Assembly (NCBI GenBank): GCA_015143295.1
Contig: CM026570.1
Coordinates: 2,876,047-2,940,046 of the forward strand
From: Tetracentron sinense
Taxonomy: Eukaryota > Streptophyta > Magnoliopsida > Trochodendrales > Trochodendraceae
Length of the DNA: 64,000 bases
Direction of reading: 5' to 3'
The position numbers and the translations under genes were made by a program. The notes below the pieces were generated by a model. The model did not search any database. It was not told where the DNA came from and worked only from the letters and a program-made list of their open reading frames with translations. This document shows, in pieces, positions 1-49,895 of the stretch; the stretch's first letter is position 1, and every line of letters begins with the position of its first letter.

Positions 1-27
1 CCTGTAATGTCTGTGAAGATTTTTTTG

Positions 28-185
28 AATATATGACAATGAAAGAACTCTTTGTAATTTTGGAGAAGATCATTGTGTTGCAATTGATTAACATATGACA
101 ATCAAAATACACATTCTAATTTTGGCGAACATTTTCATGTTATTATGAACATATGATAATCGAAGAACGGTTCGTTATTTTGTTA
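28..185. repeat. Short tandem repeat, about three degenerate copies of ~60 bp
   Basis: Three successive copies share the frame 'gaa(c/t)atatgacaat', then a variable stretch, then 'taattttgg', with a period near 60 bp. The copies have clearly diverged. No coding sense is visible. Confidence 0.55.
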
Positions 186-189
186 TCTT

Positions 190-780
190 GTAGAACGCTG
201 TTATTGCCGGTGTATTTACTCAGGCGATGTCCATACCCGCATGGGATTTATAGAAGAATTTGATAAAACCCCTTGTTTTTGGGGCTCCATGGCTAGTTGC
301 AGTTTCACACTAGGGTCATCTCGGTTAAAAACCGTATTTCAAAAAATAAATGATTAGTTTTTAAGAAGTGCGAATGGAAGGTCGCAATGTTTACTCAGCC
401 AGTGTGTTTACTCGCTCGCGCGACGTTGTAAGTCAGCCATCAATTAGTGTTCCCATGCTACGACGGCTAATATCTGTCTCAAGCCTTCATCCTCACCCCA
501 ACAGTCTTCAACCGGTGTAATTTTCCTCCAACGCTCATTTGAGAGCTTTATATATAGTTTTTGGATAAATAACATAACGCTTTTATTGAGGATGGTTTCC
601 CAGCTTTATACCTGTGGATATTGTTACATGCTGAAAATGGGTTAACAGTCCTCAATTGCCAACTGCTCAACCTCAAACTTCATCGGGCAATTGAAAAAAT
701 TCCAGGAACGCAGTAGGCCATCAGGGAATGCAAATATAGGCCATCAGGGAATGCAAATACAGTCACCATTGACATTCGGT
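190..780. other. Non-coding stretch, nothing recognised
   Basis: I see no gene, RNA or element end here. A short open frame starting at 691 has no recognisable protein character. It partly overlaps the start of the inverted arm at 781. Confidence 0.5.
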
Positions 781-1170
781 TTCAATTTTAGGCTATTTTG
801 GGTAGAACATTCTTTTGGGAGTAACACTTCCATACATCATTTCTTCTCTCTTCTTTGTATTTCATTTGTTCTCTCTAATTCAAATTTTAGATTTGTCATC
901 CTTGGGTTGTGATACTAATTTAAATTTCTTGTTACATCACTTATTTGCAGACTATATCAAAATGTTTTTCATATTGATGTGTTTGAATTGTGATTCAGGA
1001 AAGAAGACTAGTCATCCTGGAGTGTTGCTTGCTTCTAATGGTAGTCTAGGAGCGAAGGCATGAAGGAAAACATAGGGAGCATGGAGAGAGGAGGGGTGTT
1101 GCATCTAATGGTAGCCTGGGGCTCAAAGAAATGATTGGCTGTATAAGAATTTTGGGGGAAGAAACGAATG
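781..1170 (+). repeat. Left arm of a large inverted repeat (copy of the 3' region of the Ulp1-type element)
   Basis: Read on the plus strand, this stretch matches the minus strand of 5690-6050. Shared landmarks in order are 'cttgggttgtgatacta', 'catcacttatttgca', 'atatcaaaatg', 'gtgtttgaattgtg', 'catggagaga' and 'ttttggggga'. Identity is roughly 80% by eye, with small indels. The right arm lies just downstream of the minus-strand Ulp1-type gene, so this left arm is probably the tail of a second, truncated copy in opposite orientation. The weak open frame (Leu-Leu-His-His-Leu-Phe-Ala…Gly-Val-Leu-Leu) is conserved between the arms and may be a decayed last exon. Confidence 0.7.
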
Positions 1171-1574
1171 ACTCTATATGAATAGCTCTATTTTTTTAGA
1201 ACTCTTGTAAACTTGAATTTAACATTAAGGATCATGTGATTTTGTAATTGGTGAGAATTGCTTAAATGTTATTTGTTGGGATTGGCAGTTGCGTTACACA
1301 ATAACAAAATGGCTCTCAGGTGGATGTATGAACTTTTTAATGTAATAAACTACAGCTTTCCGATACAATCTCATTGTACCTTTTAGCAACTATAAAATGA
1401 TATACTGGATTAACAAATATAGCTAGTATGGATTGTTGGTCACCCGAAAGCAAACATGGGGCTATAATGTAGGTGCTGAAACTGAAAGCAGCTATATCAT
1501 CATCAAGATATGTCGCTCGAGTGGTTTAAGACTACTTCATAATGACCCTAGAAGTCTAAATTTCATTTCTCCTT
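1171..1574. other. AT-rich non-coding spacer
   Basis: No gene or element boundary is recognisable between the inverted arm and the first satellite array. Confidence 0.5.
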
Positions 1575-3400
1575 AAAAAAGAACTCATTTTTTTTCATGA
1601 AAAGACTTAAATGTACCCCTTCGAGTAATAATAACCTTGGGTGCAACTTTTTCGAGGAGGGGATCATCTATGAGTAAAAATTGAGATACATTTAAGCCTT
1701 TCATAAGAAAAAATTGGATCATCTTTGAGTAAAATTGAATTTTGGACTCTTAGAGCCAACTTCGGTCTGTTTCCGAGGCCTCAGGGCTAATTGGAGTTGC
1801 ACCTCAGTTGCATCGTCCTCAATAGAGTTGCACCCAAGGTTTTTTTTTACTTATTGTGATACATTTAAGGCTTTTATGAAAAAAAATAGGATCATCTTTG
1901 AGTAAAATTGGATTTTGGCTTCTTAGGGCAAACTTCGGTCTGTTTCGGAGGCCTCGGGGATAGTTGGAGTTGCACCTTAGTTGCACCCTCCTCAATAGAG
2001 TTGCATCCAAATTTGTTTTCACTCTTTGGGATATATTGAAGTCTTTCATAAAAAAAAAATGGGGTCATCTTTGAGGAAAATTGGATTTTGGACTCTAGGG
2101 TCAACTTCAGTCTGTTTCGGAGGCCCAGGGCTAGTTGGAGTTGCACCTCAGTTGCACCCAAGGTTTTTTTCATTCATTGAAATATATTGAAGCTTTAAAA
2201 CAAAAAAAATGGGGTCATCTTTGAGGAAAATTGGATATTGGATTCTTAGGGCAAACTTCGGTCTGTTTCGAAAGTCTCAGGGCTAGTTGGAGTTGCACCT
2301 CAGTTGCACCCTCCTCAATAGAGTTGCACTCAAGGTTTTTCTCACTCATTGGGATATATTTAAGCCTTTCATAAAAAAAAATAGGGTCATTTCTTAGGAA
2401 AATTAGATTTTGGACTCTTAAGGGAAACTTCGGTTTGTTTCGGAGGCCTCAGGGCTAGTTGGAGTTGCAACTCAGTTGCACCTTCCTCAATAGAGTTGCA
2501 CCCAAGGTTTTTTATACTCATTGAGATAAATTTAAGTCTTTCATAAGAAAAAATAGGATCATTTTTGAGTAAAATTGGATTTTGGACTCTTAGGATAAAC
2601 TTCAGTCTGTTTTGGAGGCCTTAGGGCTAGTTGGAGTTGCACCTCAGTTGCACTCTCCTCAATAAAGTTGCACCCAAGGTTTTTTTTACTCATTGAGATA
2701 CATTTAAGCCTTTAATCTAAAAAATAGGGTCATCTTGAAGAAAAATCTGAATGAAGGTATAATATTGTCAACTTTGATCTATTTTTGAGGCCTCAAGGCT
2801 TGTTGGAGTTGCACCTCAGTTACACTGCCCTCAATAGAGTTGCACTCAAGGTTTTCTTCACTCATTGGGATACATTTAAGCCTCTCATCAGAAAAAATGG
2901 GATCATCTTTGAGTAAAATTGGATTTTGGACTCTTAGAGCCAACTTCGGTTTGTTTTCGAGGCCACAAGGTTAGTTGAAGTTGCACCTCAGTTGCACCGT
3001 CTTCAATAGAGTTGCACCCAAGGTTTTTTTTACTCCTTGGTATATATTTAAGCCATTGATCAGAAAAAATGAGATCATCTTTAAGCTTCAGATATATTTT
3101 GGAATCTTAGAGCCAACTACGGTCTTATTTCGAGGCCTCAGGGCTTGTTGGAGTTGCACCTCAGTTGCACCGTTCTCAATAAAGTTGTACCCAAGATTTT
3201 TTTCACTCATTGGGATACATTTAAACCTTTCATCAGAAAAAATGGGATCATCTTTGAGTAAAATTGGATTTTGGACTCTTAGAGCCAACTTTGGTCTGTT
3301 TCCGAGGCCTTGGGGCTAGTTGGAGTTGCACCGTCTTCAATAGAGTTGCACCCAAGGTTTTTTTCACTCTTTGTGATACATTTAAGCCTTTTATAAGAAA
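1575..3400 (+). repeat. Satellite array A, ~172-bp monomer, about ten copies
   Basis: The landmark 'caatagagttgca' recurs near 1820, 1993, 2316, 2488, 2660, 2832, 3004, 3178 and 3339, with a degenerate copy near 2155. The period is therefore about 172 bp. Each monomer contains 'gttgcacctcagttgcacc', a T-run, 'cataagaaaaaa', 'gatcatctttgag' and 'aacttcggtctgttt'. Copies differ by scattered substitutions and small indels. Short open frames within the array are by-products of the repeat and carry no recognisable domain. The monomer length is close to one nucleosome repeat, as in many plant satellites. Confidence 0.9.
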
Positions 3401-3654
3401 TGGGATGCCCCACCCAAATCAAAGAAGAAAAAATGGTGCGAGGGGGTCGGGAGATCAGCCGAGAACCGTAAACAAGAAAGAGAGGAAACTTACAAGGACG
3501 ATGGGGGGTTGCAACGGATGATCCAAGGGGAAAAACGGCCTCCGATAGATATTGGAGGGAGAGAAGAGAAGAGGAGAAGGCAGGTGAAGAGTGGACAGTG
3601 GAGAGGTAGAGGATGACCCCATGGGGGAAATCCGAACTGTAAAAGAATCAGAAT
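3401..3654. other. Purine-rich junction between satellite array A and the palindrome array
   Basis: A GA-rich unique stretch (about 3420-3640) separates the last monomer from the first GATCG palindromes. No gene is seen. Confidence 0.5.
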
Positions 3655-4380
3655 CGTGAGTTTACGACCGATCGTAGATTACCGTACGAACGATCGTAAA
3701 TGGAACCATGTATTTGGCCAAATGAAAGGGACTCTACGATCGTTCGTATTTATTCTACGATCGTTCGTAGGTGTTCTACGATCGTTCGTAGGTGTTATAC
3801 GATCGATCGTAATATAAACAGAAAGTTTGCCTCTTTACTGTGAATCTACGATCGATCGTAGATATTCTACGATCGATCGTAAACGGAACAGAGAGTTTAC
3901 CTCTTTTCTGTGATTTTACGATCGTTTGTAGGTGTGTTACGATCGATCGTAACCCCGATTATTATTTATTTTTGGAATATGAAAATTGGGGGGTGGGATA
4001 CTTGGAACCCATCCAAAAAATCGACCCGACTTTTACGATCGATCGTAAATGGAACCATGTAATTGGCCAAATTGAAAGCGACTCCCCAATCGTTCGTATG
4101 TGTTCAACGATCGTTCGTATGTGTTCAACGATCGTTCGTAGGTGTTATACGATCGATCGTAATATAAACAGAAAGTTTGCCTATTTACTGTAATTCTACG
4201 ATCGTTCGTAGATATCCTACGATCGATCGTAAACGGAACAGAGAGTTTGCCTGTGATTTTACGATCGTTCGTATGTGTTCTACGATCGATCGTAAAATGA
4301 ACAGAGAGTTTGCCTCATTACTGTGATTTTACGATCGTTCGTCGGTGTGCTACGATCGATCGTAACCCCGAAATTTATTT
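3655..4380. repeat. Array of short palindromes (TACGATCGATCGTA and TACGATCGTTCGTA)
   Basis: About twenty near-palindromic 14-mers are spread over 725 bp, separated by short phrases such as 'ggtgtt', 'gatatt' and 'aaacggaacagagagttt'. A higher-order repeat of about 348 bp is visible: 'ggaaccatgta.ttggccaaat' occurs near 3701 and again near 4049, each followed by the same order of palindromes. The two palindrome forms alternate, with the perfect one usually second in a pair. No protein-coding sense is seen. The array is the centre of the inverted satellite locus. Confidence 0.9.
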
Positions 4381-4439
4381 ATTTTTTTTAGTTTTAAAAC
4401 TGGAGGGTGGGACTCGAATTTGGCCAAATGCATCCAAGC

Positions 4440-5245
4440 AAAAATCACCTTGGGTGCAACTCCATCGAGGAGGGTGCAACAGAGGTGCAACTCGAATTAG
4501 CCCTAAGGCCTCGTAAACACACCCAAGTTGACATTAAGGGTCCAAACTCGGATTTTCCTTAAAGATGACCCCATTTTTTTTTATGAAAGGGTTAAATGCA
4601 TCCAAATGAGCGAAAAAAACCTTGGGTGCAACTCCATCGAGGATGGTGCAACAGAGGTGCAACTCGAACTAGCCCTAAGGCCTCGTAAACACACCCAAGT
4701 TGACATTAAGGGTCCAAACTCGGATTTTCCTTAAAGATGACCCAATTTATTTTTGATGAAAGGCTTAAATGCATCAAAATAAGCGAAAAAAATCTTGGGT
4801 GCAACTCCATCGATGAGGGTGCAACAGAGGTGCAACTCGAAGTAGCCCTAAGGCCTCGTAAACACACCCAAGTTGACATTAAGGGTTCAAACTCGGATTT
4901 TCCTTAAAGATGACCCCATTTTTTTTATGAAATGGTTAAATGCATCCAAATGAGCGAAAAAAACCTTGGGTGCAACTCCATCGAGGAGGGTGCAACAGAG
5001 GTGCAACTCGAACTAGCCCTAAGGCCTCGTAAACACACCCAAGTTGACATTAAGGGTCCTAACTCGGATTTTCCTTAAAGATGACCCCATTTTTTTTGAT
5101 GAAAGGCTTAAATGCATCAAATGAGTGAAAAAACACATTGGGTGCAACTCTGTTGAAGACGGTGCGACTGAGGTGTAACTACAACTAGCCTATTCGGCCT
5201 TCCAAAATACACCGAAGTTGCACCTAGGAGTCCAAAATCCAATTT
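4440..5245 (-). repeat. Satellite array B, the same ~172-bp monomer inverted, about five copies
   Basis: 'gggtgcaactccatcgagg' and its variants start near 4452, 4624, 4797, 4968 and 5139, so the period is 171-173 bp. Reverse-complemented, the monomer reads like array A: 'gttgcacctctgttgcacc', 'ggagttgcacccaagg', a T-run, 'ggggtcatctttaagg'. Copies within B resemble each other more than they resemble A, which suggests local homogenisation. The last copy, near 5139-5245, is the most diverged and the closest to array A. Confidence 0.88.
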
Positions 5246-5249
5246 TTCT

Positions 5250-5440
5250 TGATACTCAATCGAGCGAGTTTAAATCGGTTTGTACTCATACATCATGTCG
5301 CATTTTTGTGTCATTTTTCTCTCCAGCAAGATTTATGGTCGCTCGAGCGAGCATGGTTTTGTTGTGACTCAAATACCAGTTGCGAAGTTATATCCCATCT
5401 GTTCGAGCGTGATTTATACTGCACGAGCGAGAATACACAG
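5250..5440. repeat. Dispersed CGAGCGAG words, one in a perfect 12-bp inverted form
   Basis: The words 'atcgagcgag', 'gctcgagcgagc', 'ttcgagcgtg' and 'cacgagcgag' occur about every 40-80 bp. The layout resembles the GATCG palindrome array to the left but uses a different core. No coding sense is seen. Confidence 0.5.
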
Positions 5441-5689
5441 AATTACCAGAATTACTAATTTTCCCAGATTCAGCTAGTGATATGTTATTCCTTTCAGGAT
5501 CCCCCCAAGGAACATTAGCGCATGCTTACAATGTCATTCTTTGTGACTTTAACAAGATTGCATGATATAATTATATAATTATGAACATTTGGTTGGGACT
5601 GGCACTTGCAAAATAGAAAATTTCATATAAATGTCAACTATAAAAATCATATACAAGACAACTCTATTGAATCCTTGAACAATTCAAAT
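5441..5689. other. Short non-coding spacer inside the inverted locus
   Basis: No gene is recognised. The phrase 'ggttgggactggca' near 5591 resembles 'gttgggattggca' near 1277 in the same orientation, so the two flanks share more than the inverted arms. Confidence 0.4.
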
Positions 5690-6050
5690 TGTACAAGGGC
5701 TGACACCGTTACAAAGCCTTTCCCCAAAAATTTTATACAACATGTCACCCCCTATCTACCATTACAATGCCCATTCTCTCTCCATGCTGCTTATGTTTTC
5801 CTCCATTGCACCTTTGCTCCCGAACCACCATTCCAAGCAAAACACCTGGATGACGAGTCTTCTTCTTTCTGAGACACAATTCAAACACACCAATATGAAT
5901 AAGCATTTTGATATTGTTTGCAAATAAGTGATGCAACAAACAATTTAAAATAGTATCACAACCCAAAGATGAAAAATCTATTATTTGAATTAGTAGGATA
6001 ACCCAAGGATGACAAATCTACAATTTCGAATAGTATCACAATCCAACAAA
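5690..6050 (-). repeat. Right arm of the large inverted repeat, 3' flank of the Ulp1-type gene
   Basis: This is the reverse complement of the 781-1170 arm, with the same landmarks in the same order. It lies immediately downstream of the minus-strand Ulp1-type gene and is probably that element's 3' untranslated or last-exon region. The phrase 'cttgggtt(a/g)t…tacta' is itself repeated inside this arm (5945-6050). Confidence 0.7.
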
Positions 6051-6519: not shown

Positions 6520-9426
6520 TCAATTCCAGTACTCGATGTAGCCGATCATAAATATCCCGCAATCCGTACTGTAAAATGCCAACATTATAACGATGACCCC
6601 AAAATGATTTAAACAAATACTTAGATATAAAAAGACTCATTGAAGGGATTTATCACGAGTTTTGTTGTTGTGGTACGCTCTTCTCGTATTCACAATCTCA
6701 ATCTCTAAAATTATAAGAATGGCCACCTTCCAATTGTTTCCCTTGAGATACATATTCTAATCCCGCCAACTGAAAAATCAATGAATGATGAAGGTTATAT
6801 AACATCACTAAATAAAATTATATGTTTATTTTTTTTACTTACAAGTGTGCGTATTTCTAGTGCAATTTTTTCAGTCCGGCGTGGTCTCATTGAATCAAGT
6901 ATTGTAACCTTCCTACAAAGGAGGTCAACCTCTACCAAATACCAATGGACCCCACTCCGATTTACGGGTATAAAGACCTATAAAATACGAATGCAGAAAT
7001 ATTACAATTGATTCCATTTTTAATGTAAAATAAGTTGTAAATTTGTTAAACATGCGAAGAAAAATAAGGTGTACCCTATCACTCTTATAGATGTCAAAGC
7101 CCGCGGAGTTTGTGTGAACAGGGACCCCATAAGAAAACTTCCGCTCCATCACACATTTTCTCATGAATTGGTGTAGATGGGAGGACCCATAATAGGTTCT
7201 CTTCTGATGTGGAGGTCCCCATTCACGCTGTTGGTTGTCAAGTATGCGCATATATGCATCAATAACCTACAAAATAAAGATAATGAGTTATAATTTTCGT
7301 CTTATGTTACGACCAGAGTTATAATTATTTAACATGCATTGTTGATAGACTCACCATATCATCCAACAGGCCACCGGGCTCTAATGTCTTAAAAGCAGCC
7401 CTGTAGACAAATGCCTCGTCTATGCATACCACGATATCACTGCATTTTTTAAGACAATAATCAATAGATTATATCCATACGTGTATAGTGGTTTAAAACA
7501 ATAATCAAATTAGTAGCTTACCTCATACTACGAATACCATCACAACGTTGAGCATCATCAACTGCAGCTTTTTGAGAAGCAGTCAAGCTCGGAAAAAGGG
7601 AAGGCCGTACATGTGGGTCTCGAGCAAGGGTAGAAATCACCTTTCGCGGCTTCATCTTCTGATGGGTCGGTAAGTCCTCCGCATATGATTTATAACACTC
7701 TGTTTTATGGGGTCTACTCTTAACCCGACTATTAATTGCAACTCGTTTTCCCACTGTGCTACCTAACTTGTTCATCTCCTTTGAGTCAGATATCAAGGGA
7801 TGGACGGCACCTAACAGGAACACGCAACAAATCTTAGTACTCAAAATTGGATTTTAGCACATGAATATAAAAATAAAATAAACTATACATTTACATACTT
7901 CGTTTCACAGGACTTTCAGAAACATATATCGAGTCCTGTAGAGATCTTTTGTTGAACTCATTTTGAGTTGAGTTTTCTTTCTTAGCTAGCTGCTCTCGGA
8001 GGGTGTCAATAATAGTGTCCTGTGTAGCAATCTTCTGGTGAAGATCCTCAATAACAAATGACATTTGGGTATCGTGCAGCTCCCTCCGTGTAAGTTCTTT
8101 CTCTACTTCAACACGCCAAGCTGCTTGCTCACCAACAATGCGTTGCAAGTCTGAGATTTGCTCCAACGCTTTTGATAAGAGTTCTGTCATGTCATTATGC
8201 TAATCCGAAGTGGAAAATTATCAAATTAGTTATAGTTCCATAAGACATCAATTAAGATTCTTGAACTTTAGTAAGGTGCATCAACTAAAATGGAGGTGAG
8301 GTGCACACATGCAAATGCTCATCTCTAACTCCGGAAGCTAAATTAGGCAACCCTTCAGAAGACACCAACAATGGGTGCTCATCCCCAAGGGTTTTTTCGT
8401 CCACATTTGTAGACACATGACAAGGGACGATCTGCAATAACATTTCAAATTCAAATCACACATACAATTAATGATGATAATAGCAATACTAATGTGACGA
8501 GAATCACCTCCTTAACCGAATTCTCAGCCCCATCCTTAGGAAGTCTTTTCAATAATCGCTTCACTTCCCTCAATTGTTTTTCTTTAACAGTAGGATGAAG
8601 GTATAACACCAGCTCTTTAGGTTCCATGAGGTACTTTTCCCTTAAATTGAACATTTCTTCTGTCCAACTTAAGAACCGCGGGATTTGTTGTCTTAACAAC
8701 TTCTTCTCACCCTCTTGTATTGGCCCCACATGCTCCATGTACCAATACTAGTTAATAGAAAAGGATATCAGGATTTTATGCTTATGAATCAATATTACAA
8801 TGTTTAAAAATTGGAACAAAGCGTACCTGTAAAAACACAACAAACCCCCCAACATTTGCCACTTTTCCATGCTTCACTCTACAGATAGCCTCTACAAGTG
8901 TCGAGTATGCAAATTCCCCCCATGCAATCTTTTTTACGGTTTTCATTTCAACCAAGCCATACAAATACTTCTCTGACACATATTGTTTGGCATGAGGGAC
9001 AAACAACGTGCATAGTGCAAAGAGGATGAAGGTCCTTTGAAAGGTCTCACCGCTATCCCCTGCTTTCAGCATCTTTTCCAATGTCCCCTTGTAAATATAT
9101 CCACCTTTAACTTCGTAAAGGTCACGTAGCTCTCTGATTGAATCATCGTTTCCCTCCAAAACGATTCGAGATCCAACCACCGGCAACCCGAAACACAATA
9201 CCATGTCTGTAAGAGATATGGGTACTGTAGTATTGTCCACCATGACTGCACCACTATTCGGAGAGTAGTGCTCCACAACGAAGTCGATAATATGGCGTCG
9301 CAAATGTATCTTCCCATGTATATGCAACAAAGAACCTAAGCCAATGCTGGAAATAGCATCTTTTTGTTCAATAGAAAATTCTTTCGCGACGTTGTAAAAT
9401 GCAGACGGTGAACACCTGTATAGCAT
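6520..9426 (-). pseudogene. Ulp1/C48-type protease gene with an N-terminal plant-mobile-domain-like region (transposon-borne, probably inactive)
   Basis: Ten minus-strand exons join in phase: 9426-8827, 8747-8508, 8431-8309, 8199-7899, 7810-7522, 7439-7355, 7266-7075, 6977-6843, 6769-6657 and 6568-6520 (709 codons with the final stop). The first exon resembles the mobile-domain or DUF1985-like N-termini found before Ulp1 domains in plant Mutator-type elements. Exon 4 is a likely coiled coil (heptads, Glu/Gln/Leu-rich). The last four exons form a C48 peptidase fold: DAYMRILDN, then VHWYLVEVD with the catalytic His, ILDS with the Asp, and PQQQNSTDCGIF with the oxyanion Gln and nucleophile Cys. 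C48 enzymes process or remove SUMO-like modifiers. An in-frame TGA at 6698-6700, where the family often has Trp, would truncate the protein before the Cys. The open frame runs a little upstream of the chosen ATG. No terminal repeats or target duplication were found, so assignment to a Mutator-type element is inferred from family knowledge. Confidence 0.72.
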
Positions 9427-10644
9427 TTTAGCTAACCTTCTACCATTATGAGTAACAAATCAGAGAGCATATAAAGATAAGAGTGCATTTAAAATAAATA
9501 ATGTGCACAAGAGCTATAAAATGATATGTTTATCTTCAATTATTCCAAAATAAACGGGTGCAAGATCTACTTCTCGCATGACAGTCTTAGGTAAAATGAG
9601 AGAATACCTAAAATATCAATTTTGTTTCTGGAAGGAGTAGATCTTGTTACAACACAGATGGAAGGATTTCATATGAACAAGAGAGAAAACTTTTTATTTT
9701 TCTACAAACAAGTTGCTACAAACAAGTAGCTCAATAATTTCATATGAACATATATTGCTACAAACAAGCTTGTTACAACACAGATGGAAGGAGTAAGCAT
9801 TAAAGTGGGTATGTGGCTAATTCCTGTGGGTTCCACGAGAAATTATTGAGGAATACTCAACAAGAGAGAAAACTTTTTATTTTTGTCATAGATACGCAGT
9901 TAGCCCGCAACCCTGATCAATGGGGTGGTGCCTAGCAGATAGTACCCATGGGGCAAGTAATGCTTTCCTATTTTTATTATCTTTCAAGTGAGCTCAATTG
10001 TGTTGCACCTATTTTGTTTCTGGTTCGTATAATGTGTTAGCTTCAAAGGATACTTTGGTATCATTTCGCTACCCTTTCATAATCTCGTAAGAAGAATAAA
10101 GGGTCAGTCACAGCCACACTCTAATTGTATCTACTCTGAAAATTCTTGAGCTTACTGAGATGACAACACTTACACCCTCTCTCAATGGAGCGACAAAGCG
10201 AAACTTTGCCTTCGTTTTAGTTCTATGGAGCAACTGATTGAAGTTGAAGGGTCAGCTCTCTCATTTTATCATGCATAGATTGAAGGTAATATCAATCATT
10301 ATTTCAATATATCATGTGAACAAAGGCAATTGAGTTATTTTCAAGTAAAACTCTTAACAAACATTAGTACAATCTAAGGGGACACTTGTGTTCGTCAAAA
10401 TCTCAATAATGCTAGACTAGGATTTATATAATAGTTACAAGAGGAATGCTATCCCCGATTGCATTTACATACTCACCCTTTTATTTATATAACCCAAGAA
10501 GTTGAAAGTATGAAAACATGGATTGAGGTTAGCATTCCTTCATTTTTATTTATTTATTTTGTAAGTAGATAACTTCTTTGACAATTACAAGTTATGTACA
10601 AATGAATAACTCGGCCCTGTTCGCACTTGGGGAAGATCCCTTGG
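9427..10644. other. Non-coding upstream region with short duplications
   Basis: Between 9545 and 9900 two phrases occur twice: 'cttgttacaacacagatgga' (near 9650 and 9770) and 'aacaagagagaaaactttt' (near 9674 and 9858). 'gctacaaacaag' is also repeated. The rest shows no gene. This is the 5' flank of the Ulp1-type gene, but no clear promoter or element end is visible. Confidence 0.55.
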
Positions 10645-10935
10645 AGATAAATGTCGACGGATACTGATGTTCAGTGTCTTTTGGTCAAGGTCATGAGCAC
10701 TTCAATTAGCTGATCTAGGGATAAACTTAAAGATTACAGTGATACTGCTTTGCCGCAGAAAATTGATATCCACAACAATATGATGAAATTCAACATTCAC
10801 TATCATCGATCTCCGCATTCAAGAAGTATATGATTGCTTTAGAGTGAGATTCCACTACCACCTGTGGCTGTGGCCAATGGTGGGATATTGCCAATTGAAC
10901 ACCAGCCCGGATGGCTTCTGCTAGGATTTTTTTCA
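10645..10935 (-). pseudogene. LINE-type RNase H-like (RVT_3) fragment
   Basis: On the minus strand from 10935 the frame reads LAEAIRAGVQLAISHHW, then VVVESHSKAIIYFLNAEIDD, then FKFIPRSAN with a stop and SAHDL. This is the order seen in plant RVT_3 RNase H domains: the EA-[IL]-x-x-G helix, the v-E-S-D-S strand and the R-x-x-N-x-x-A-H-x-L-A end. The DS position reads HS here. At least one stop (TGA after RSAN) and frame damage are present. It could come from an L1-type LINE or a host RVT_3 gene; a LINE is more likely given similar pieces elsewhere in the window. Confidence 0.6.
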
Positions 10936-13900
10936 ACTCAAGAAAACACCTACGATTTATTTATCAATATACTTAGGGTATCTAATGTTTCTTCAAGAAA
11001 AACACCCAAATTATTTGTAATGCCAAATTAATGAGTTTAGTGTGAGCCCTAGCTAATAGGAAATCTGAGAATAGCAACTGGTTCAGTTTGCAAGAATAGA
11101 GTTGGCTAGTTTATGACTTACCCCATCTTAGAGGAGCAGTGAAAGGCCTGAGAGGGGAGAAAAGCAACATACCTACGTAGAATTTCATAATAAAACCCTA
11201 ATAGATCCAAGATATGTCAAAAAAACATTTGACAAAATAGATCTTATGACCCAAAATTACAAAAATATAAGCATAATAAGGGTATGGAAGTGTTACTCTA
11301 ACAATGAAATACCAAACAAGAAACAAGGATTGAGCTAAGGAAAAAAATTATTTCTTTTCCACAATACCTAGAGATGAAATTTTATTGCAGTAGAAACAAA
11401 TAAGAACGGAGCTACCACAAATGACATTAAGGGTCCAAATGGTTTATCACAAGAAATTGGTATGAAAGACGTTGAAAACGTGGAGAAGGATCAGTTCATG
11501 GGACATAATGGTTGTTGCAGATTCTCAACTCATTAAAACATTCAAATAATAGATCTTTTGCCAAAAAAATTACAGAAACTCAGCATAAGAATTGATTGAG
11601 CTAAGGAAAAAATTTATATCTTTTCACAATACTTAGAAACAATGATTGAGATGAAATTTGCAAACATACCAAATGGGGGTCTCTGATTTGAAGAAATTAA
11701 AATTTAATTCGTTGAAACTGTCGAGAGGGATCAGTGCTTGGGTGTCGGAAGAACTCTTTATGGCGGATTTGAAGAACTCTTTATGGCTGCTGCAGATTAG
11801 GATGAAGGAAGGAAGATGAAGATGAGAACAGAGAGAAAATATGGAGATACAAAGAAGAGAGAATAGAGAGAGAGAGAGCAGGGGGGTTGAGTTCAGCTAT
11901 GGAAGTGAAGTGCTTCTCTCCCGCCAACTTTCTGGGGTGAGAGTTGAGACCGGCTACTGCCAGTCACAAGGAGAAACCAGATGAACGGCCACGATTCTTA
12001 GGTACTTAACCCTTCGGTACACTAAGGGTATGGAAGTGCTTCTCTACCCTGAATTGGTGTTGCTATATATGTTTAGTTAATCTCCCGAGTGTGCATCATT
12101 ATTCAACTGTCTCAACTGTGTTACATCTTCCAAGAGCTATCAAGACTCTTTTCTTTTTCCAAGGAAGAAGAGATCATTCCTCAAAACAGTTTTCTCATCT
12201 CTTAAGGTAATTACTATTTCTCTCTCTAATAAAGAGTTAAACACTTCCCTCTCTGAGTTAATCACTTTCCCTTTCTTGTCCCCGTCATTTTGCATTGTAT
12301 TGCTCTTCCTGTTAGGGACCGTTCTGTCAAAAAAACACGTCTACTTCCATTCTAACTTTTCATTTTTCTTACATTGATCTTCGTCCCCGATTATGCTAGA
12401 TCGTGGCTGGTATGTGTAAATCAAGTAAATTCCGTGACAGATGAGAGGAATCAATGCCCTATATTTATCATTTTCTGGAGTTCGATTGGGTGATAAACTG
12501 GTCTGTTCATAATATGCTATAACATAAGTTGGTGATCAGTGAGAGCCGATGAGGCAGGAACAGGGGTTGTAGGCGACAAGGGCATCGAAGGGAGATGGTT
12601 CACCATGGCAATGACATCGAGAGGAGTTCATTGGATACTCATGCTGTAAAGTGTGCGTTGTTGTTCTCTACTCTCCGTAGGTATGCAGATCACATGTTTG
12701 TAAAAATGCGTATATAAAAGATTCTTTATTGACTCATTTCTGGACATCAGTTTTTTTTTAAGCTTGGTTGTTGTTTGTTATTGTTATAAGCGTTTACTTT
12801 GCTTTAAAATATGTTTAGGGTCCCTGTTGGGATCGTACACAACATGGAAGTTAATGTCCTCTCAGGTTTGTTTTGTGCTCCACTGATAGAAAATACGAAG
12901 ATTATAAAATGGTTTGTACGGCCTAAACATGGACTAATACAGTCCGATTTTAGAGTTTTCTCTTGGTTATTTACTTTTTTGTTTGATGCATGCATTTAAT
13001 CCAAAATCATGTTCTTTTGAGTTTGTGGTTTGTAACCTGAAAAACCAGGGTTTGAAGAGTTGCAAAGAAGAGAGATGGAATAGTGATCTACAAAATCCTT
13101 TGTCGATTTCACTTGGAAGAAATGGGTACCTGTCTTTTTCTTGATGTTTGATACAAATACAATAATTTGGTCATATCTTATGTGCATGCAAATGTATTTG
13201 TGGCAAGAAATCAACAAGTATTAATGGTATGGTGTCTTTTTTTTATAACCTTTAAGAGGAACTTTTACGAATAGGGAGACAAATATGCATCTCAATGATA
13301 TAGGTCGTGTTGCCTGATTTTCTGTAAAAAATTACAAACCAGATTTTACATGGTCCTAGCACCCAATATAAAGTGGGAGATGGAGTTATCTGGACTGATA
13401 TGTAGTCCAAATTTTTTGAGAGTTTTCTCTTTGAGTCGTGTGGCCTGATTTTTAATCCAAATTGCACAACCAGATTTCTTTGGATCTTTTGAGTTGTACG
13501 ACTCCATTTTTCCACCTCTTCATCTTCTTCTTCAAGTTTCTATCAGATTACAAATTCCAAAGCCGTGCTCTCTCTATTTCGCTCTGCCCCACCATATTTA
13601 TGTCACTCACCTATTGTTTCAGATGATTTTGGAGTCATTTACCAAATTGTGTATATTTTTTTGATGCAGACGCATGTGGATTGGAGGATACAAAGCGAAT
13701 TTATGTGATAACCTCTGTCAAAATTAAAATGAGGGCAATCTAGGAAATGATGACAAAGGTACCACATTTCATTTCATATCAATATAAATTCAATTTGAGT
13801 ATTTTCTCTCTCCAATTTCCATGCATTGACATTAAAAGTCTAGCTAACGATTAGTCTTTACTATGATTAATAGATGTTATTATAGGCCCTCTATTGCGCA

Positions 13901-14640
13901 TGCATACGTAGATTTTATTACTATTCCTTATATTAATTAGGGAAATTTAAAAAACCAAAATCATTGCATTTCCTATACAAATTTCACTTTATATACTTCT
14001 TAAGTTAAACAAGCTTTGGGTCCCGACCAATGATGTGTTTGGTCTTAATTCCATTAGAAAGTTTTTTTATTTATAAAGTTATAACAGATAAATAAGCTTC
14101 TGTTTTCTCATTTACTTTACAAATTTGAAGAGGAAAGGTTACTGGACTAAGAGATGTAACAAACATTCAAAACATTATCAATATCTACAACAGGTCACTC
14201 TGCTTCCTTCTGCTTCCTTCTGCTTTTATTTTTATCTTCCTCTTTTTTATTGCAACTAATTTCATATGTAGTGCTTATGTTTTTTCATTCATGATTTATC
14301 TTCAGGATGAATGATTATGTCCTTTTTTTTTTTTAATATGAGAAAAGACATTTTTATGTGTTTACACATTTATAGCAAACATCATTGTGATTAATCCATT
14401 TCAGCCACATTATTTAGGTAGAAATTTTGCATAATTTAATTCTAATGTGTCCTAAGAATCCCAATAGTTTTAAGTGAAATATGAAGCATGCTTCTCAAAG
14501 CAAAATGATCTCATTCTAAATATCAAACCAACCACAATCTATACTGAAGTGATGCATCATTGGACCTCCAAAAATTTATTTGACGAATGGACTCATAGAC
14601 GACAGTTGAAGAACGTGACCATTTTACATCTACTTTTTAC
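10936..14640. other. Long stretch without a recognised gene
   Basis: The phrase 'gtatggaagtg' followed by 'ttctct' or a variant occurs near 11283, 11898 and 12026. Near 12060 'gctatatatg' could be a TATA box on the plus strand, followed by a possible leader ending at a donor-like 'aaggtaatt' near 12205, but no coding exon follows that I can define. Near 11860 a GA-rich run and near 14200 a triple 'tgcttccttc' are simple repeats. At 13300-13510 a degenerate internal duplication ('gtcgtgt.gcctgattttt', 'ccagattt') is seen. No protein family is recognised. Confidence 0.5.
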
Positions 14641-14650
14641 TTAGATCTTA

Positions 14651-15220
14651 CTAGCAGATACCCGTGCGATGCACGGGGTGCACAAAAAAAATTAAGAGAA
14701 AAAATAAGAATAAGAAGGAACCTAATTAAAATAACTTTTAATTATTAGTAAACTGTTAATATAGGTTTTGGTACTCCCCTACAATTTTTTATGGCTCATT
14801 TAGTAGAGGGTGTTTATGAATTGGTTGGGACTTGAATATAAGAATTGAGAGAGAAAATGGGGAGTTAAATAAAGGGTATTTATGAATTGGTTGGGACTTG
14901 ATAGAGAGATAAGAATGGAGAGAGAAACAGGGAGTGTTAAGAGAGGGTATTTATAGCTCCCATCAAGTGATGATGTGGCATCACAAATCTTAGAATGAAG
15001 ATCAAAGAGGGATGCCACATAGGCATCCTAATTTCTTTGAAGAGAAAATGCAACTATTATTATTATTGAAATTGCTTCTGACATCAACATGAAGTTCCTC
15101 AAATTAGTGTCTTCCATTTTTATTAACATAAAACTATTATCGTTTTCTATCTACTTAAAAATTATTTGCATATCATTGAGCTAAATTATTATCCCGTGCA
15201 TCGCACGAGGTCTTTGCTAG
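14651..15220. mobile_element. 570-bp element bounded by two inverted Helitron-like 3' ends
   Basis: The right end reads CCCGTGCATCGCACG-AGG, a short spacer, then CTAG followed by T. This is a Helitron-type 3' hairpin plus CTRR terminus. The left end is the same structure on the other strand: CCCGTGCATCGCACGGG, spacer, CTAG then T, reading leftwards. The terminal ~28 bp of each end therefore form inverted repeats. Between 14805 and 14960 there are about three copies of a ~70-bp direct repeat ('ttatgaattggttgggactt'). No Rep/helicase coding capacity is present. I see no clear 5' TC end for either orientation. Confidence 0.6.
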
Positions 15221-16175
15221 TTACAACTCTAAATTTCCAAGCCGGCATTCTTGAAAAATATCTCTTCTTGCATGCTTGCTCATAAATTATAGGCCATAGA
15301 TGAAAACAAGGTTCTGGAAATTGTTGCCTTTTTTGCTTTCTTCTCCCAGACCTTCCACATGGAAGGCCACACCCCTACCACTCACGCAAGAGGCGGGGGG
15401 TGTTGCTGTGCAATAACTTACTGGCTTATTTATTCAGGTTCTGAAGTCTGAACACATCTTAAATGAGTCAAAGCCCGGATATCAGACAAACCATATGGGT
15501 GCTGGATTCATGAATTCATTTTTGTTCTTCCAAATATATAATTTTATTTTGTTGGAACATACAAGAGAGAAAATAAAATATTCAAAAAGGGCGTTGGAGG
15601 GGGACCCTTGGTAGCTTGCCCCAACCACCATAGACAATATATTTAGTAATATGAAGAATTTAATAATTTCTTCCAACATCTAAACTAATCAGGAGATAAC
15701 TTGCAAGTATCGAATATAAAAATAAAATGTTATTTTCATCTGATTTGTTGATATCTAACTGCGTTTGATACTGTTTTGTTTTCTTCCTTCCATCAGGAAT
15801 AGGTGGCCTGTTTACAGCATGTCAACCATTTATAAAACCATAGGTGGTTCATGTGCAGGGCATATCCTTAATTCCTGACATTGTATATATTTGCTCCTAA
15901 AATATATAGTACACAACTTTGATCTGGGATCAAATCCTGTGAGGGCTACTCTAGAACAGATACTAATCATAGTAACTGGGGTTGCGGGGTGCGGCCTAAC
16001 TTTATACTGTGAACCAAATATATATTAGTGGTTTAGTAAAAGCGTAAGTAAACTACTTGTGGACTTTGATCTCAAGACTATCCTCATGATAGGGTCAGGT
16101 GTATTCCTAATCCTTCAAAACTGGAATTAGAAGCATAAGCTACCTCAGGTGCTACAGATGCCAGGGTGTAATGGA
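15221..16175. other. Intergenic DNA, no gene recognised
   Basis: Short open frames here have no family character. Nothing else is seen. Confidence 0.5.
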
Positions 16176-16179
16176 TTAT

Positions 16180-16305
16180 AGACCTAATGGTTAGATTGTT
16201 GAACCTTAATCTGAGTTAATAGGGGTTAAAAAGGATGCGTGTTGACCTATGGGTGCAATTGAACTCTCCCTGAGTTCAATCGTGATTGGCTGTGATTCGA
16301 TATCG
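16180..16305 (-). mobile_element. Relic related to the Helitron at 55270-55545 (minus orientation)
   Basis: The plus strand here reads 'gagttaataggggttaaaa…gcgtgttgacctatgggtgcaattgaactctccctgagttcaatcgtgatt'-like sequence, in short blocks. The reverse complement of 55420-55500 has the same blocks in the same order (gttaataggagttaaaa, acgtgttaacc, cgggtgc, attgaactct, gagttcaatca). No ends are preserved. Confidence 0.55.
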
Positions 16306-16529
16306 TTTGGGTAGGCAACTAGGCAATCTCTTTTGGTTTACCGGCAAGTATGTATTAAATAATATTCGTTGAACCGACTTCATTTGTGGATTTGACCCGC
16401 ACTGAATGCATAGCCCTGAAATTTGTGGACATGAGCCATCTTTGATCCTTATGAAAAGGGAAGATGGAAGGCGCATCATACTCACTGTTGGTGAGAAGCA
16501 TCATACACTTGCTATTAATCACACTCTTT

Positions 16530-16795
16530 AGTCCTTTTTTTTTCTTGAATTTTTAATTTTATTTTATTAACAAAGTCACACACACTTTAACCCACTATAC
16601 ATGACCCACACACACGGCCTCTCATCCACAGGACCTCCCAAAAACAAGAGAGGGAGGTGGGGCTTTAAGGACCCCCAAGCACTAACTCACACACATTAAC
16701 AACCCCCCCCCCCCCCCTACCAACACACACACACACAAACACCTACCCACCCAGTATTCAAGACTCACATACCCCCCCGACACGTCACACTCTTT
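16530..16795 (-). repeat. CA/C-rich low-complexity repeat with an A/T tail, possible SINE-like remnant
   Basis: The block contains a run of about fifteen C (16706-16720), several 'cacacaca' runs and, at its left edge, an A-rich tail when read on the minus strand ('ttaataaaataaaattaaaa'). That tail suggests a retroposed element on the minus strand. I cannot find convincing A/B boxes. Confidence 0.35.
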
Positions 16796-17089
16796 AGTCT
16801 TTACTCTACCTCAAAAACAAAAAAAAGGTTTATTGAGGGATCTTTTTGTCTTTTTACTGGCACACTAGTGCTTTCGCTATATCGACAAGTCTTAAGAAAA
16901 AAAAGAAAAGAAAATGACAAAAAAAAAAAAAAGATTAAAGAGAGTAATCATTTTGACAGCAGTGCCACGTGGTCTAATTCCATAGTACGTCAAATCCAGC
17001 AGACCCAGAGCTGAAAATAAATAAATAAATAATAATTTTAATCAAATTCATCATTTTGCATAAATCAGGGATTCTCGAACAGACCACCG

Positions 17090-19008
17090 TTTCTCTTGAC
17101 TCTTGGCTCTTGCTCGCTTTTTATCCTACGCACCCCTCTCTCCATTTGCTTATCGTGCGCACCTTAGCCGCCTTCGGATCCTCCGGTGAGTAAGCTTCTC
17201 TCTTCCTATCTTGACCCGAGAGTCGTTTGAAAGAAGTAAAAGAGGAAAACGCAACATCAGCCGAATTAAGAGGTGAGATTTTTGCCCTAGAATTTCGTAT
17301 TGTTGCTTGAAAAGTCTAATAGTTATTGGTTCAGATCGATCTTTAGATGCTTTGATGTTAGTTCTTGTGCTCTTAGAACTGTAATCTTTATGTATTTGAT
17401 CGAAATTTGAGTTATAATTGCTGGGGTTTACTGTATACCCTTATTTCTATGAATGTAAAATAACTGAAAAAAATGTTCTATTAATGAGAACTTTTGATAG
17501 ATCTTTTAATAAATTTACTGCTTTTGCTGTAATTTGCAGTTGTGTTTTCTCTGATCTTTCAAATTTTTGATTTTTTTTCTTTCGTGTTGTGTAATACATG
17601 TTGGTTGTTTGGTTTTACTGCACGTCTTTGAATTGTATTGATCCGGATGCAGGATAAGGTGATGTGTTTAGTTAGATGCAAAAACATGGATAATCATGGC
17701 AGTCATCACAGAACTGTACTTTAGAATGCTTGAGTTGACTTCAATGGTGATAAAATAAATATCCTACCATCATGGGACTTCTAGTCCCCCTCCATTTGGG
17801 GGAGAACTTGAAATTTCTCATTTTGCGGCTTTTAAAATCTCTCAGTAATTGTAATCCCGAGAAATGGAAAGCAAGTGAACAACATAAAAATTGATAATTA
17901 GTAGAATTTTGTAACGATCATGCGATCTTTAGCTATTTGTGGTAAGGAGTCAGCATATAATATGTCAAGCTTGGCGTAGGGATATATGTTGTTAGATACA
18001 AATTGAGTTCTATAATGCCAGATTCATAGTTTTCGCTATCCTTTTGTTTTCCTTGTCTATATTCATGGCTGTCTTATTCAATGCCCAATCAACACAGTTG
18101 TGAAGCTTCTTTCTTTATCTTGTTCTCATACATATCATTATAATTTGGGTATAAACATGGTTTATCAATCAGAGGAGAATTATTGAATAATTTGGATTTT
18201 TCGGAGTGTTCTCGAATTCCTGGAAAGACTTTCAGATGGGTTCCTGTGTGTTCCTGTGTGTTGGTATCTGAGGGATTCTTGAAGTTATTCCGACCTCCAT
18301 TTGCTCCTAATTCATAATTGCACTATGGCGTGATCAAGCATTCAAGTAGAGTATTTGGCAATTGAGAATAGTGCATGATTATGATCATCTTCTTTTCATA
18401 CCACCTACAAAGAAAAAAGTGTAATACTAACCTTAAGCAGATCGATTCCCAACAGAATCCAAGGAAATGTACATAATTTCATATGCCCCACCCCTACCCA
18501 CCCACCATGTGCTGTTTGGAAGCAGGTTGGGAGACTGAAGAGGTATTTCTTTCTTTTTTTGGGTGAGAAAACCAGAGCTAAACACAATATGAATATTTTT
18601 ATGTTTATAGGGAGGGAAAAAATTCGGCAAGGTACGTTGTGTGCAGTGGTCGATGGTATTAGCCCATCCCAATTTCTATATTAAAGGAATTGGTACTTCT
18701 CAAGGAAGTATTCTTTCTAATCGTTGAATTTTACTTCTCCCCACGAGGAGACAATCAATATATATTAAAATGCCTCTTTATCTTTACAGCTAGTCATTAG
18801 TGTTCAGAAAATCTTAGCATATTTATTTTGGTGTATGATACTTTTGCCGAATAGATCAAAGTTTGGAAATTCACTTCTCCATGAAATCTATGCTACTGTT
18901 TTCTGGTCTGATGGTGTTTCAGAGGGGGGGCTTCTTTTTACTAATGCAAATTGAAGAATTTTTCTGTTCATACAGGGAGCTGCCTCAAGTAAATTTGTAA
19001 AGGTAATC
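17090..19008 (+). promoter_or_regulatory. 5' UTR and long 5' UTR intron of the PTI1-like kinase gene
   Basis: A CT-rich leader (about 17095-17185) ends at a good donor 'ggtgagtaag' (GT at 17186); a second donor lies at 17273. The likely acceptor is 'tacag' ending at 18975, leaving 33 nt of leader before the ATG at 19009. The 5' UTR intron is thus about 1.7-1.8 kb. No canonical TATA box is obvious upstream; 'aataaataaataataa' near 17025 is AT-rich only. 5' UTR introns are common in plant kinase genes and often raise expression. Confidence 0.6.
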
Positions 19009-38100: not shown

Positions 38101-38162
38101 ATATACACTACAACAAATCTTTCGCTTAGTGATGGAAATATTTCCGTCTCTAATATCATTAT

Positions 38163-39062
38163 TGTGAGGGGAAAAATTACCGGAAGGACACGCGTCAGCT
38201 GCAGCTTCTCCCACGCTCTGGTTTACTGGTAGAAAGTTGGAGCGGAGGGTGTGGCACCCTAACCTGTACTCCGATGGTAAAGTAAGTAGATGAAGAAGAC
38301 GATGAACAGTAAACACTAGAACAGTCACTGAAAGTTACGCAAGGCACTGGAAGCACTGAACACGTATATCATCAGGTCTAGATCAATGAACAAGTGTCCT
38401 GTGCACTAAAAATCACGGGGTTTTTATAGGGTAAGGTTGGTATGGCCATCGATGACCATGGATGGCCATAGGTGTCCATACCACGTGTATTTGCACTCAT
38501 TGCCAAATATCTTAGACATATCTGCTGCCGGTTGCATCACACGTGAGAGCCTCCTATGAGTCAAATCGGACGGGATCGGACGGTACGCAGAAGTGACCAG
38601 CATTAAATGCCAAGACAGTGCTTTCGGCACGAAACGGCGCGTTCGGCACACTTGTCGGAATTATGGATCGCCTCCTGATCACTTCCTCCTACGAGTCGGT
38701 CTCGTTGTTGACTTGAGCTCGGTTACGGCGTAGATGTCTTAAAACACAGCACGACATCGTTGTCGGTGAGACAACAGACTCGTTGTTCGCGTAACGACAA
38801 AGACGTTGTCAAAAGTACAACGGTCACGTTGTGCTTCAGACAACGAGCACGTTGTCCAAGCCACAACGGAAACGTTGTTCCGCAAGAGAACAAAGACGTC
38901 GTAATGCGCACAACGGGATCGTTGTGCATCAGACAACGTGTGACCCCTCTATTTTAAGCACGTGACCCCAACTCGTGTCCACGTGTCACTTTCGTGAACA
39001 AAACAACAAAAACGAGCTCGTTCTCCAACGCTAAGTTGATTTTACGAATTTTATCCGTTACA
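38163..39062 (-). repeat. 3' LTR of the Tat-lineage element
   Basis: 900 bp, same ends as the other LTR, same length without indels, about 99% identical by eye. It directly follows the polypurine tract when read on the minus strand. Confidence 0.92.
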
Positions 39063-39075
39063 ATTTGCCCCTTTA
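39063..39075 (-). other. Polypurine tract of the Tat-lineage element
   Basis: Minus strand 'aaaggggcaaat' lies immediately before the TGTAACGG start of the 3' LTR, the usual place for the plus-strand primer. Confidence 0.7.
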
Positions 39076-39677
39076 TGATGCTTGGAACGTAGTTCGAAGC
39101 GTCATAAACGGACAAAAAGATCATATCTGGCACTGCTCCGGAAGACGAAACGTTGCGTGCTTTAAACGCTCGCTGAGAAGGTCGACCGTTCACGCCAGCT
39201 GGTTACGCGTGCGAACCGTCACGTCTCTTTAATGCGGACAGGCTGTCATTATCGCCGTTTTGAATTTCAAAACGCTTTAATAACTCTGACGGTTACTCTC
39301 TTTTGGCGAAAAGACGATCTTGCCACTGCTCTTCTTCCCGTTGACACAAGTGTACGGCTCTGATGAAGGGTAGTGGTGTATTTTCACAAATCTGAGATGC
39401 TTTTAAAATCCCATCGAATCCTCCTTCTCTTTCACCCTGTTCCTTCAAGCGCTGTTAATCTGCCGAATTTTCTTCTCAACCGAAAGTTCATCTTCCTCAA
39501 GCTCTCAACAATCTCTCTCAGTCGTCTTCTGTTCGGTACGTTCTTCACCCCTTTCCCTTATTATTTCTTACTGTTTCTCCCTTTCTCTCTCCTCTGGTTC
39601 TTGGAGTGATTCTGCTCTGTGTACACTTTGTTGCTCTGTTCACTGTTCTTCTCCCTTTCGCTGTTTCTTCCAACACC

Positions 39678-42162: not shown

Positions 42163-42489
42163 TCTGCTGTTCCTCTTCATGTTTCTGCTTTTCTTTTTTT
42201 TTGATGATGTAAACCATTTTCTTTCCCTTTTATGGGAGTTCGTTGCTGTAATTGCCCAAAGATGGGCCTTCTACATGAATGGATCACTTCTTTTTCTTAT
42301 GTTTGCACTTCTTTTCACCTCGTAGCGTAGCACAACGTATGCACACAGGAAAAGTAGAAATACAACATGAGTAGTTGAATAAATTTTCACAATTCACAGC
42401 ACTGATGTGAATATGGCACTTTACTATGTGAATGTATGTACGAGGGTGAAAATCATAATTGATGCACATACTTAAACAAATTATTTTGA

Positions 42490-42706
42490 TCAAAGCACTA
42501 CGAACAGAACACTGCGAGTAGAGCACTACGATCAAAGCACTACGAACAAGCACTACGAATAGAGCACTACGATCAAAGCACTACGAGCAAGCACCACGAG
42601 TAAACACTACGAGCAAAACACTACGAGCAAACACTACGAGCGAAGCACTACGAGCAAACACTACGAGCGAAGCACTACGAGCGAACACCACGAGCGAAGC
42701 ACTAAT
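42490..42706. repeat. Tandem array of 'cactacgagcaaa' words inside the retrotransposon
   Basis: About seventeen copies of a 11-15 bp unit with the core CACTACGA (variants CACCACGA, CACTGCGA) lie in the non-coding part between the antisense ORF region and integrase. Tat elements often carry tandem repeats in this region. Confidence 0.85.
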
Positions 42707-43079
42707 CCAGATACATCATTCGCGTAGTTCACTGTGAATGTAATCTGACAAATAAAATTCATATAATGAACACAATGTAACCCAGTTTCGAAGCACATGC
42801 TCAGAGGATGTCATTAGGATAAGCCACAGGATTTGTTCAGATGACATCCTTATATAAGCCACTCGTGTTCGTTATGAGTACGTTGTTCAGTCGAAATTTT
42901 ATTTGAATTACTTGCAAAACATTCACAATATTACACTGATGAACCAGACAATGCATAATGTAGACAATGAGCAGGCGCATAATATTGCAAATCACATGTT
43001 GAAATATGAGCACTATGATAATGTAAAATCACTGAAATCTTGTAAGCACAACGATGCATGTAGTAGCATATCACAGATT

Positions 43080-46000: not shown

Positions 46001-46440
46001 GTGAAGTCAATGCAAACTCTCACCTTCCCGTTCTTCTTAGGCATAGCGACAACATTGGCTATCCAATCAAGGTACTGCACCTCCTGAATGAACCCGAACT
46101 GAATCAGCTTGTCAATCTCCTCATTCACTGCATCATGATAAGCTGGAGCAAGCCTCCGAGGTTTCTGCTTCACTGGAAGGATAGCAGGATCAACATTAAG
46201 GTGATGACAGATAACACTCGCATCGATGTCAGTCATGTCTTTGTGAGATCATGCAAAGACATCGAGATTCTGCCTAAGAAAACTCAGCAACTCGAGCTCT
46301 TCCTCCGCTGTCAAGCTTGTCCCGACCTGCAACACCTTTGACTCTTCTTCCGTTCCCAAATTGACAGCTTTCGTGGGCTCAACGGAAGGTCTGCACAACG
46401 ATGTTTCCGAGCTCTCTTCCACAACGGGAACGACCTGTAA
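43080..46440 (-). pseudogene. pol region of the Tat-lineage element (RT, RNase H, second RNase H, integrase)
   Basis: Domains on the minus strand: reverse transcriptase about 46240-45450 (palm sequence with YIDDIVV), RNase H about 45330-44950, archaeal-type second RNase H about 44840-44420 (YVDGSS start, EAEYEAL, CDSQLVV), and integrase about 44200-43100 (HHCC zinc-binding start, then the core with WGLDIV and ITDNG). The protein is close to full length for the lineage but broken in places. It lies head to tail with gag and ends near the 42490 tandem array. Confidence 0.9.
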
Positions 46441-48879: not shown

Positions 48880-48900
48880 AGGGGGGTTCGTTTATTATTT

Positions 48901-48920
48901 CCCACAGACGGCGCCAATTT
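48901..48920 (-). other. Primer-binding-site-like stretch of the Tat-lineage element
   Basis: Minus strand directly after the 5' LTR: three A's, then TTGGCGCCGTCTGTGGG. It starts with the TGG expected to pair with a tRNA CCA end. I do not assign the tRNA. Confidence 0.7.
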
Positions 48921-49820: not shown

Positions 49821-49895
49821 ATTATTAGGGACAGAAATCGCATTATTAGTAACGGGACCTTTCCGTTACTAATCGCAGATTTGTTATAGTGATAC

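Follow-up and report, generated by a model that had tools for sequence, protein, structure and literature searches.

Layout of the opposed-array locus

The window analysed here, the whole 64,000-nucleotide stretch of Tetracentron sinense DNA (C20:2876047-2940046), contains near its left end two arrays of a ~172-bp monomer in opposite orientation, separated by a palindrome core, and all of these lie within a copy of a Mutator-like element (MULE), here called Y. Searches were carried out against the genome of 1.16 Gb in 1479 contigs. The features in and directly upstream of the window are as follows.

L029:6053-6854 (upstream of the window), plus strand: array C, left of the transposase gene, 87% identical to array B
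L029:7424-9828 (upstream of the window): FAR1 and MULE transposase gene of the window copy, by Pfam
1-818, plus strand: interior of Y up to the foreign block on its right; directly upstream, outside the window, is the transposase gene
819-834, minus strand: inverted right terminus of a MULE, GAGTAACACTTCCATA; reverse-complementing the GTTACTC-type right ends of other Y copies gives the same letters
833-1679, minus strand: interior of MULE family Z, inverted, with the flank 875-1161 (homologous to 5718-5993); 91-99% identical to 19 loci
1680-3406, plus strand: array A, with 10 extracted monomers of ~172 bp; corresponds to the right array of Z in inverted orientation
3400-3410, strand not applicable: junction between array A and Y, seen in the window copy only
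3408-3662, minus strand: stretch of Y between the palindrome core and the site of the Transposase_32 gene, from comparison with other Y copies
3663-4364, strand not applicable: palindrome core, TACGANCGNTCGTA; 16 perfect copies, 20 sites at no more than one mismatch
4440-5250, minus strand: array B, the native right array of Y; 4.3 copies by TRF
5718-5993, minus strand, as the PMD segment: region right of array B, counterpart of 875-1161 by self-BLAST
8785-9459, minus strand: plant mobile domain (PMD, PF10536) coding segment, 225 aa open; Pfam E 1.3e-11
9625-9740, strand not applicable: 116-bp piece, missing from most listed Y copies and kept in a few
12028-12044, plus strand: right terminus of Y, GTATGGAAGTGCTTCTC; 25 other loci end within window 12032-12051
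12045-12053, plus strand: 9-bp target-site duplication (TSD), TACCCTGAA, with the same 9 letters directly left of the element at L029:5044-5052

The opposed diagonals that a preliminary description of this DNA had expected in a self dot plot are present: TRF, inverted-repeat search and self-BLAST all revealed array A in plus and array B in minus orientation. The best opposed match between the two arrays extended over 816 nt at 79% identity and scored 677 bits in self-BLAST, far beyond the 30 bits of the best of 50 Markov-resampled pairs. Likewise, the core of GATCG palindromes reported between the arrays was confirmed, as its 16 perfect copies of TACGANCGNTCGTA compare with none in 1000 Markov resamples. 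The shared monomer, of which array A was said to have about ten copies and array B about five, was recovered with the same orientations and with 10 and 4-5 copies, respectively; however, the average identity of A to B monomers was only 75%. Monomers were on average 77% identical within A, 93% within B and 96% within C, 87% between B and C, and 75-77% between A and either B or C. Arrays A and B, whose identity of 75% compares with 77% within A, 93% within B and 87% between B and C, are therefore no pair of arms from a single homogenised array. The proposed enclosure of the arrays by inverted copies of a transposon's 3' region holds in so far as the flanks 875-1161 and 5718-5993 are 78% identical in self-BLAST, but the true unit is larger: its left end lies 4.9 kb before the window, and its right end at window position 12044.

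The locus is the interior of MULE Y

Linking the locus to a transposon was right, as the locus is the interior of a 16,939-bp copy of Y, whose first 4.9 kb precede the window. In a search with window 8700-18000, the matches of 25 other loci stopped within 12032-12051, and further listed loci, mostly more diverged, matched in parts only. In a search upstream of the window, 19 Y-type (91-98%) and 12 diverged Z-type (80-84%) loci shared a sharp left end at L029:5048-5057; the matches of 8 more loci began at inner positions, and 7 of these had an additional, separate piece starting at L029:5048-5057. We compared the sequences adjoining both ends in the window copy and in 10 other copies with both ends fetched, paired by position and strand. 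A 9-bp TSD was exact in 6/11 copies (two of them T-rich), matched at 8/9 positions in one and was missing from four, whereas none of 110 cross-pairs reached 8/9. The putative terminal inverted repeats (TIRs) are degenerate: the two ends, with the right end taken from the commoner type and not from the window copy itself, were alike at 17/27 positions, which 1 in 100,000 shuffles reached. Taken together, these results demonstrate that Y is a dispersed Mutator-like family with sharp ends, 9-bp TSDs in 6/11 copies and short degenerate termini. The part of Y at window 1-818 was found at 93-98% identity in 8/20 fetched Y-type loci (L014, L019, L020, L022, L024, L025, L027 and L028), with L019 and L027 matching over a part of it only. 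At two loci, two MULE left ends lie in tandem ~123 bp apart (L009:8639/8762 and L015:1203/1326), perhaps as a result of nested or aborted insertion.

Thirteen open reading frames of Y copies were compared with Pfam, one more being set aside because it lies outside Y, and yielded FAR1, MULE, SWIM- and zinc-finger-like, Transposase_32 and PMD matches. The MULE transposase domain (PF10551) was recognised at L029:7759-9828 of the window copy with E 6.6e-33 and in L010 with E 9.4e-34, and the FAR1 domain of the Y transposase with E 6e-16. The FAR1 and MULE segments of the window copy sit in different frames, so this copy would be non-autonomous unless splicing joins them. Transposase_32 was identified in L020 (E 9.4e-16) and, as two weaker pieces below the curated cut-off, in L028; its gene is missing from the window copy. 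The PMD stretch is 87-99% alike in most of the listed Y copies and their relatives; an excerpt of PMC8616336 states that this domain occurs in angiosperms only, and with the Transposase_32 matches it marks the genome as plant-like. None of the 13 open reading frames, which cover a part of the exons, gave a VANC-like match.

Opposed arrays are native to Y elements. Their native pair consists of array C, in plus orientation left of the transposase gene, and array B, in minus orientation right of the core, and gene-bearing sequence separates the two. Array B begins ~50 bp past the core, both in the window and, for example, at C11:15475488/15475539. A monomer tag had 719 exact sites genome-wide (363 + 356; none for the control), the first 100 of which fell in ten places, as short arrays. 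Within these 100 sites, five elements with a located left end (C4:4.05, C4:13.26, C4:16.62, C5:2.62 and C5:14.84 Mb) carry both arrays, left-plus and right-minus in the orientation of the element; the tags of nested Z at C4:16.62 and C5:2.62 were set aside, and a sixth, mixed place (C5:21.28) was left out of the count. Y was also considered as a Foldback element and rejected as such, since its arrays do not reach near the ends: array C begins ~1 kb from the left end, and array B ends ~6.8 kb before the right one.

Array A comes from a second, inverted MULE

Array A, unlike B and C, does not belong to Y: its source is a related MULE family, Z, of which an inverted piece sits within Y. The 19 further loci that match window 833-1680 at 91-99% each start at 833-834, and partial matches were found on C18 (from 834, 86%) and C19 (from 1061, 99%). 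Past the position corresponding to 833, one and the same sequence follows in 15/16 fetched Z flanks; the anchor could not be located in the sixteenth. Matches from 808 on occurred at only two other loci, C4:16628164 and C20:31885971, and the left junction at 819-834 is thus common to three loci, including the window. Array A itself aligned in register at 90-93% over ~1.7 kb with 16 loci, the C20 composite included, and at 86% with the C4 composite.

The right-hand junction of array A is different in this respect. No match across 3400-3410 was found in any of the 20 fetched Y-type loci (L009-L028), of which 18 match from 3408 or 3410 on; the remaining two, L017 and L018, are without the core. 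At C4:16.62-16.64 Mb, the parts are arranged as follows: Y left end (plus), junction, array A, inverted Z-type left end (L016:1642), Y core and array B. This position of an inverted Z-type left end between array A and the Y core, together with the matches of array A and of the terminus, indicates that Y carries an inverted Z. The C4 and C20 composites are cut or rearranged on their right side. In the window copy, the sequence found elsewhere between array A and 3408, including the Transposase_32 gene as in L020, is gone; array A adjoins the core because the rest of Z and the Transposase_32 gene of Y are missing. All parts of the symmetry described earlier at three levels are there, but it is in part a historical accident, since array A and its flank stem from a related MULE lying inverted.

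The nested junctions contain extra bases and no clean TSD, with filler-like bases at 814-818 and in L016, so that both insertion and template switching are possible for Z. The same junctions would suit recombination of Y and Z through their arrays, by gene conversion or gap-repair template switching, with no insertion of Z at all. We regard this as possible but doubtful, as the right terminus at 819-834 and the Z-type left terminus at C4 resemble the two ends of one inserted element.

Could arrays A and B have been selected as a pair, for hairpin RNA and siRNA or for cruciform extrusion? Their arms of ~800 nt with 79% complementarity might serve in this way, but A and B come from different families and are 75% alike, the adjacency of array A and the core recurs in none of the 20 other fetched Y-type loci, and the native pair C and B has gene-bearing sequence between its members. 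Such a functional inverted locus is unlikely. Even less probable is a seed of satellite expansion from transposon tandem repeats, as had been suggested for this locus: there is one array of ~5.4 kb (C9:12476414-12481871; L017, L018), lying beside a Y fragment, but no larger one among the matches listed, and the 719 exact tags in 1.16 Gb, with the 100 listed confined to ten places, do not support it. Equally improbable is a mis-joined arm produced by the assembly, because, despite a right junction peculiar to the window copy, the left one is found again at two other loci, the outer 9-bp TSD is intact, and the best other listed match to array A is 93%, too low for a recent copy of any locus listed.

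The palindromes recur in LTR-retrotransposon-like repeats

The core of Y is present in the genome in 26 near-full copies, including that of the window, and one half copy; the others are 84-95% identical to it, and more distant partial matches elsewhere reach 68-79%. The palindromes are far more abundant: TACGATCGATCGTA has 4871 exact sites, compared with 13 for its backward control, and a second form, TGCGATCGATCGCA (e.g., at C1:304049), has 6889, compared with 1. Eight of ten fetched palindrome clusters on C1 aligned mutually over hundreds of bases, and the Y core aligned with all ten, with E values, from a search of these 10 loci only, between 5e-29 and 5e-4. Within 250 bp downstream of the palindromes, 8/10 clusters (one of which, L074, is a different repeat) have a TATA-type box, in six of these eight at a distance of 74-78 bp. 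With the palindromes masked, only short matches between the core and the clusters were left (E at least 0.07), so the case for shared spacers rests mainly on the pattern ACAGAGAGTTTG-N8-30-TACGATCG, which has 122 sites compared with 0 for the control, many of the listed ones outside Y cores (e.g., C1:14306565, C1:30882728 and C1:32858056).

The pattern palindrome-N80-110-TATAAATA had 547 sites, compared with 0 for the control. Its 100 listed places included 18 neighbour pairs on the same strand, 5.7-10.3 kb apart, as would be expected for two LTRs, and one opposed pair within 15 kb. From these sequence patterns we infer that the palindromes may be a U3 promoter motif of LTR-retrotransposon-like repeats. 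In L020, the Transposase_32 frame is preceded by the core. The distance from the last palindrome to a candidate ATG is ~385 bp, with no TATA-type box in between, and this ATG is in frame with the Transposase_32 match in L028 but out of frame in L020.

The window also contains an LTR retrotransposon (38162-49823) with gag, RT, RNase H and integrase domains, whose LTRs (38162-39065 and 48920-49823) are 99.0% identical. It has no core-type palindromes within it, and carries a 14-bp unit, CACTACGAGCAGAA, in tandem at 42488-42704.

Discussion

The symmetrical locus consists of known kinds of mobile DNA in rearranged form, and is probably no new satellite. We assign a probability of about 0.86 to the whole account, according to which it is the middle of a 16.9-kb MULE Y with an inverted piece of Z, a later deletion and an LTR-derived core. 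Z would have entered Y in inverse orientation, by insertion or by copying-in during repair, and the Y/Z composite may then have been copied to other loci. Y itself would move by its MULE transposase, as is usual for its family. A later deletion in the window copy may have joined array A to the palindrome core. The core would have come from the promoter side of an LTR-type retroelement to its present place upstream of the Transposase_32 gene of Y. Array copy number may have gone up and down by slippage or unequal exchange.

Among the closest known systems we count the FARE elements of Arabidopsis, which are plant foldback elements. The preliminary description knew of no family with such a layout, which is true of the exact arrangement, but the excerpts of PMC3169594, PMC5225508 and PMC5735166 describe both MULE/Foldback elements with tandem repeats in inverted ends (PMC3169594, PMC5225508) and VANDAL arrays (PMC5735166). 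According to the excerpt of PMC3169594, the Tm1 Mutator/Foldback elements of root-knot nematodes share with Y the 9-bp TSD, the inverted tandem-repeat arrays and a variable repeat number; in contrast to Y, with its 172-bp monomers well inside a 17-kb element, they have repeats of 13-15 bp inside the TIR and come in the two sizes given there, 1.1 and 2.6 kb. Similarly, Muta1 and other Aedes MULEs have subterminal tandem repeats and TSDs of 8-9 bp, whereas Muta1 differs from Y in its 12-bp repeats in a 145-bp TIR and its length of 3.2 kb, as given in the excerpt of PMC5225508.

The VANDAL elements of Arabidopsis resemble Y in being MULEs with accessory genes and non-coding tandem repeats that diverge between related families, and apparently also in their degenerate TIRs, as far as the excerpts of PMC5735166 and PMC10398659 describe them. 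In the same excerpts, the tandem repeats in their non-coding DNA are targets of their own anti-silencing protein and of RdDM. The differences are that the VANDAL motif has nine bases, as compared to the 172-bp monomer of Y in two opposed arrays, and that the Y open reading frames scanned gave no VANC-type match. PMD sequence in a transposon is also known from TE-encoded PMD proteins (excerpts of PMC8616336 and PMC7156037), proposed as counter-silencers in the former, which traces PMD presumably to Ty3/gypsy TEs, whereas the carrier here is a MULE. With its arrays, its PMD segment and its apparently degenerate TIRs, Y may work in a VANDAL-like manner, and its arrays are probably, by this analogy, non-coding regulatory or protein-binding DNA.

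A broader reading, which we put forward only tentatively, would join these observations. The CpG-rich 14-bp palindrome NNCGATCGATCGNN might be a transferable promoter module, which abundant LTR retrotransposons from more than one lineage would carry in repeated form ~75 bp before their TATA boxes, and which the MULE would have taken up, together with its spacers, ahead of the Transposase_32 gene. One host- or TE-encoded regulator might then act on both classes, and the MULE arrays and PMD/Transposase_32 proteins would perhaps form a VANC-like anti-silencing system.

Documented here is a large MULE family with PMD and Transposase_32 sequence and paired opposed arrays. A three-level symmetry that looks designed can arise from a related transposon inverted within another and a deletion, and dot-plot symmetry alone is therefore no ground for inferring function. 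The palindrome common to LTR-like repeats and the MULE provides a concrete, testable candidate for a regulator of two transposon classes.
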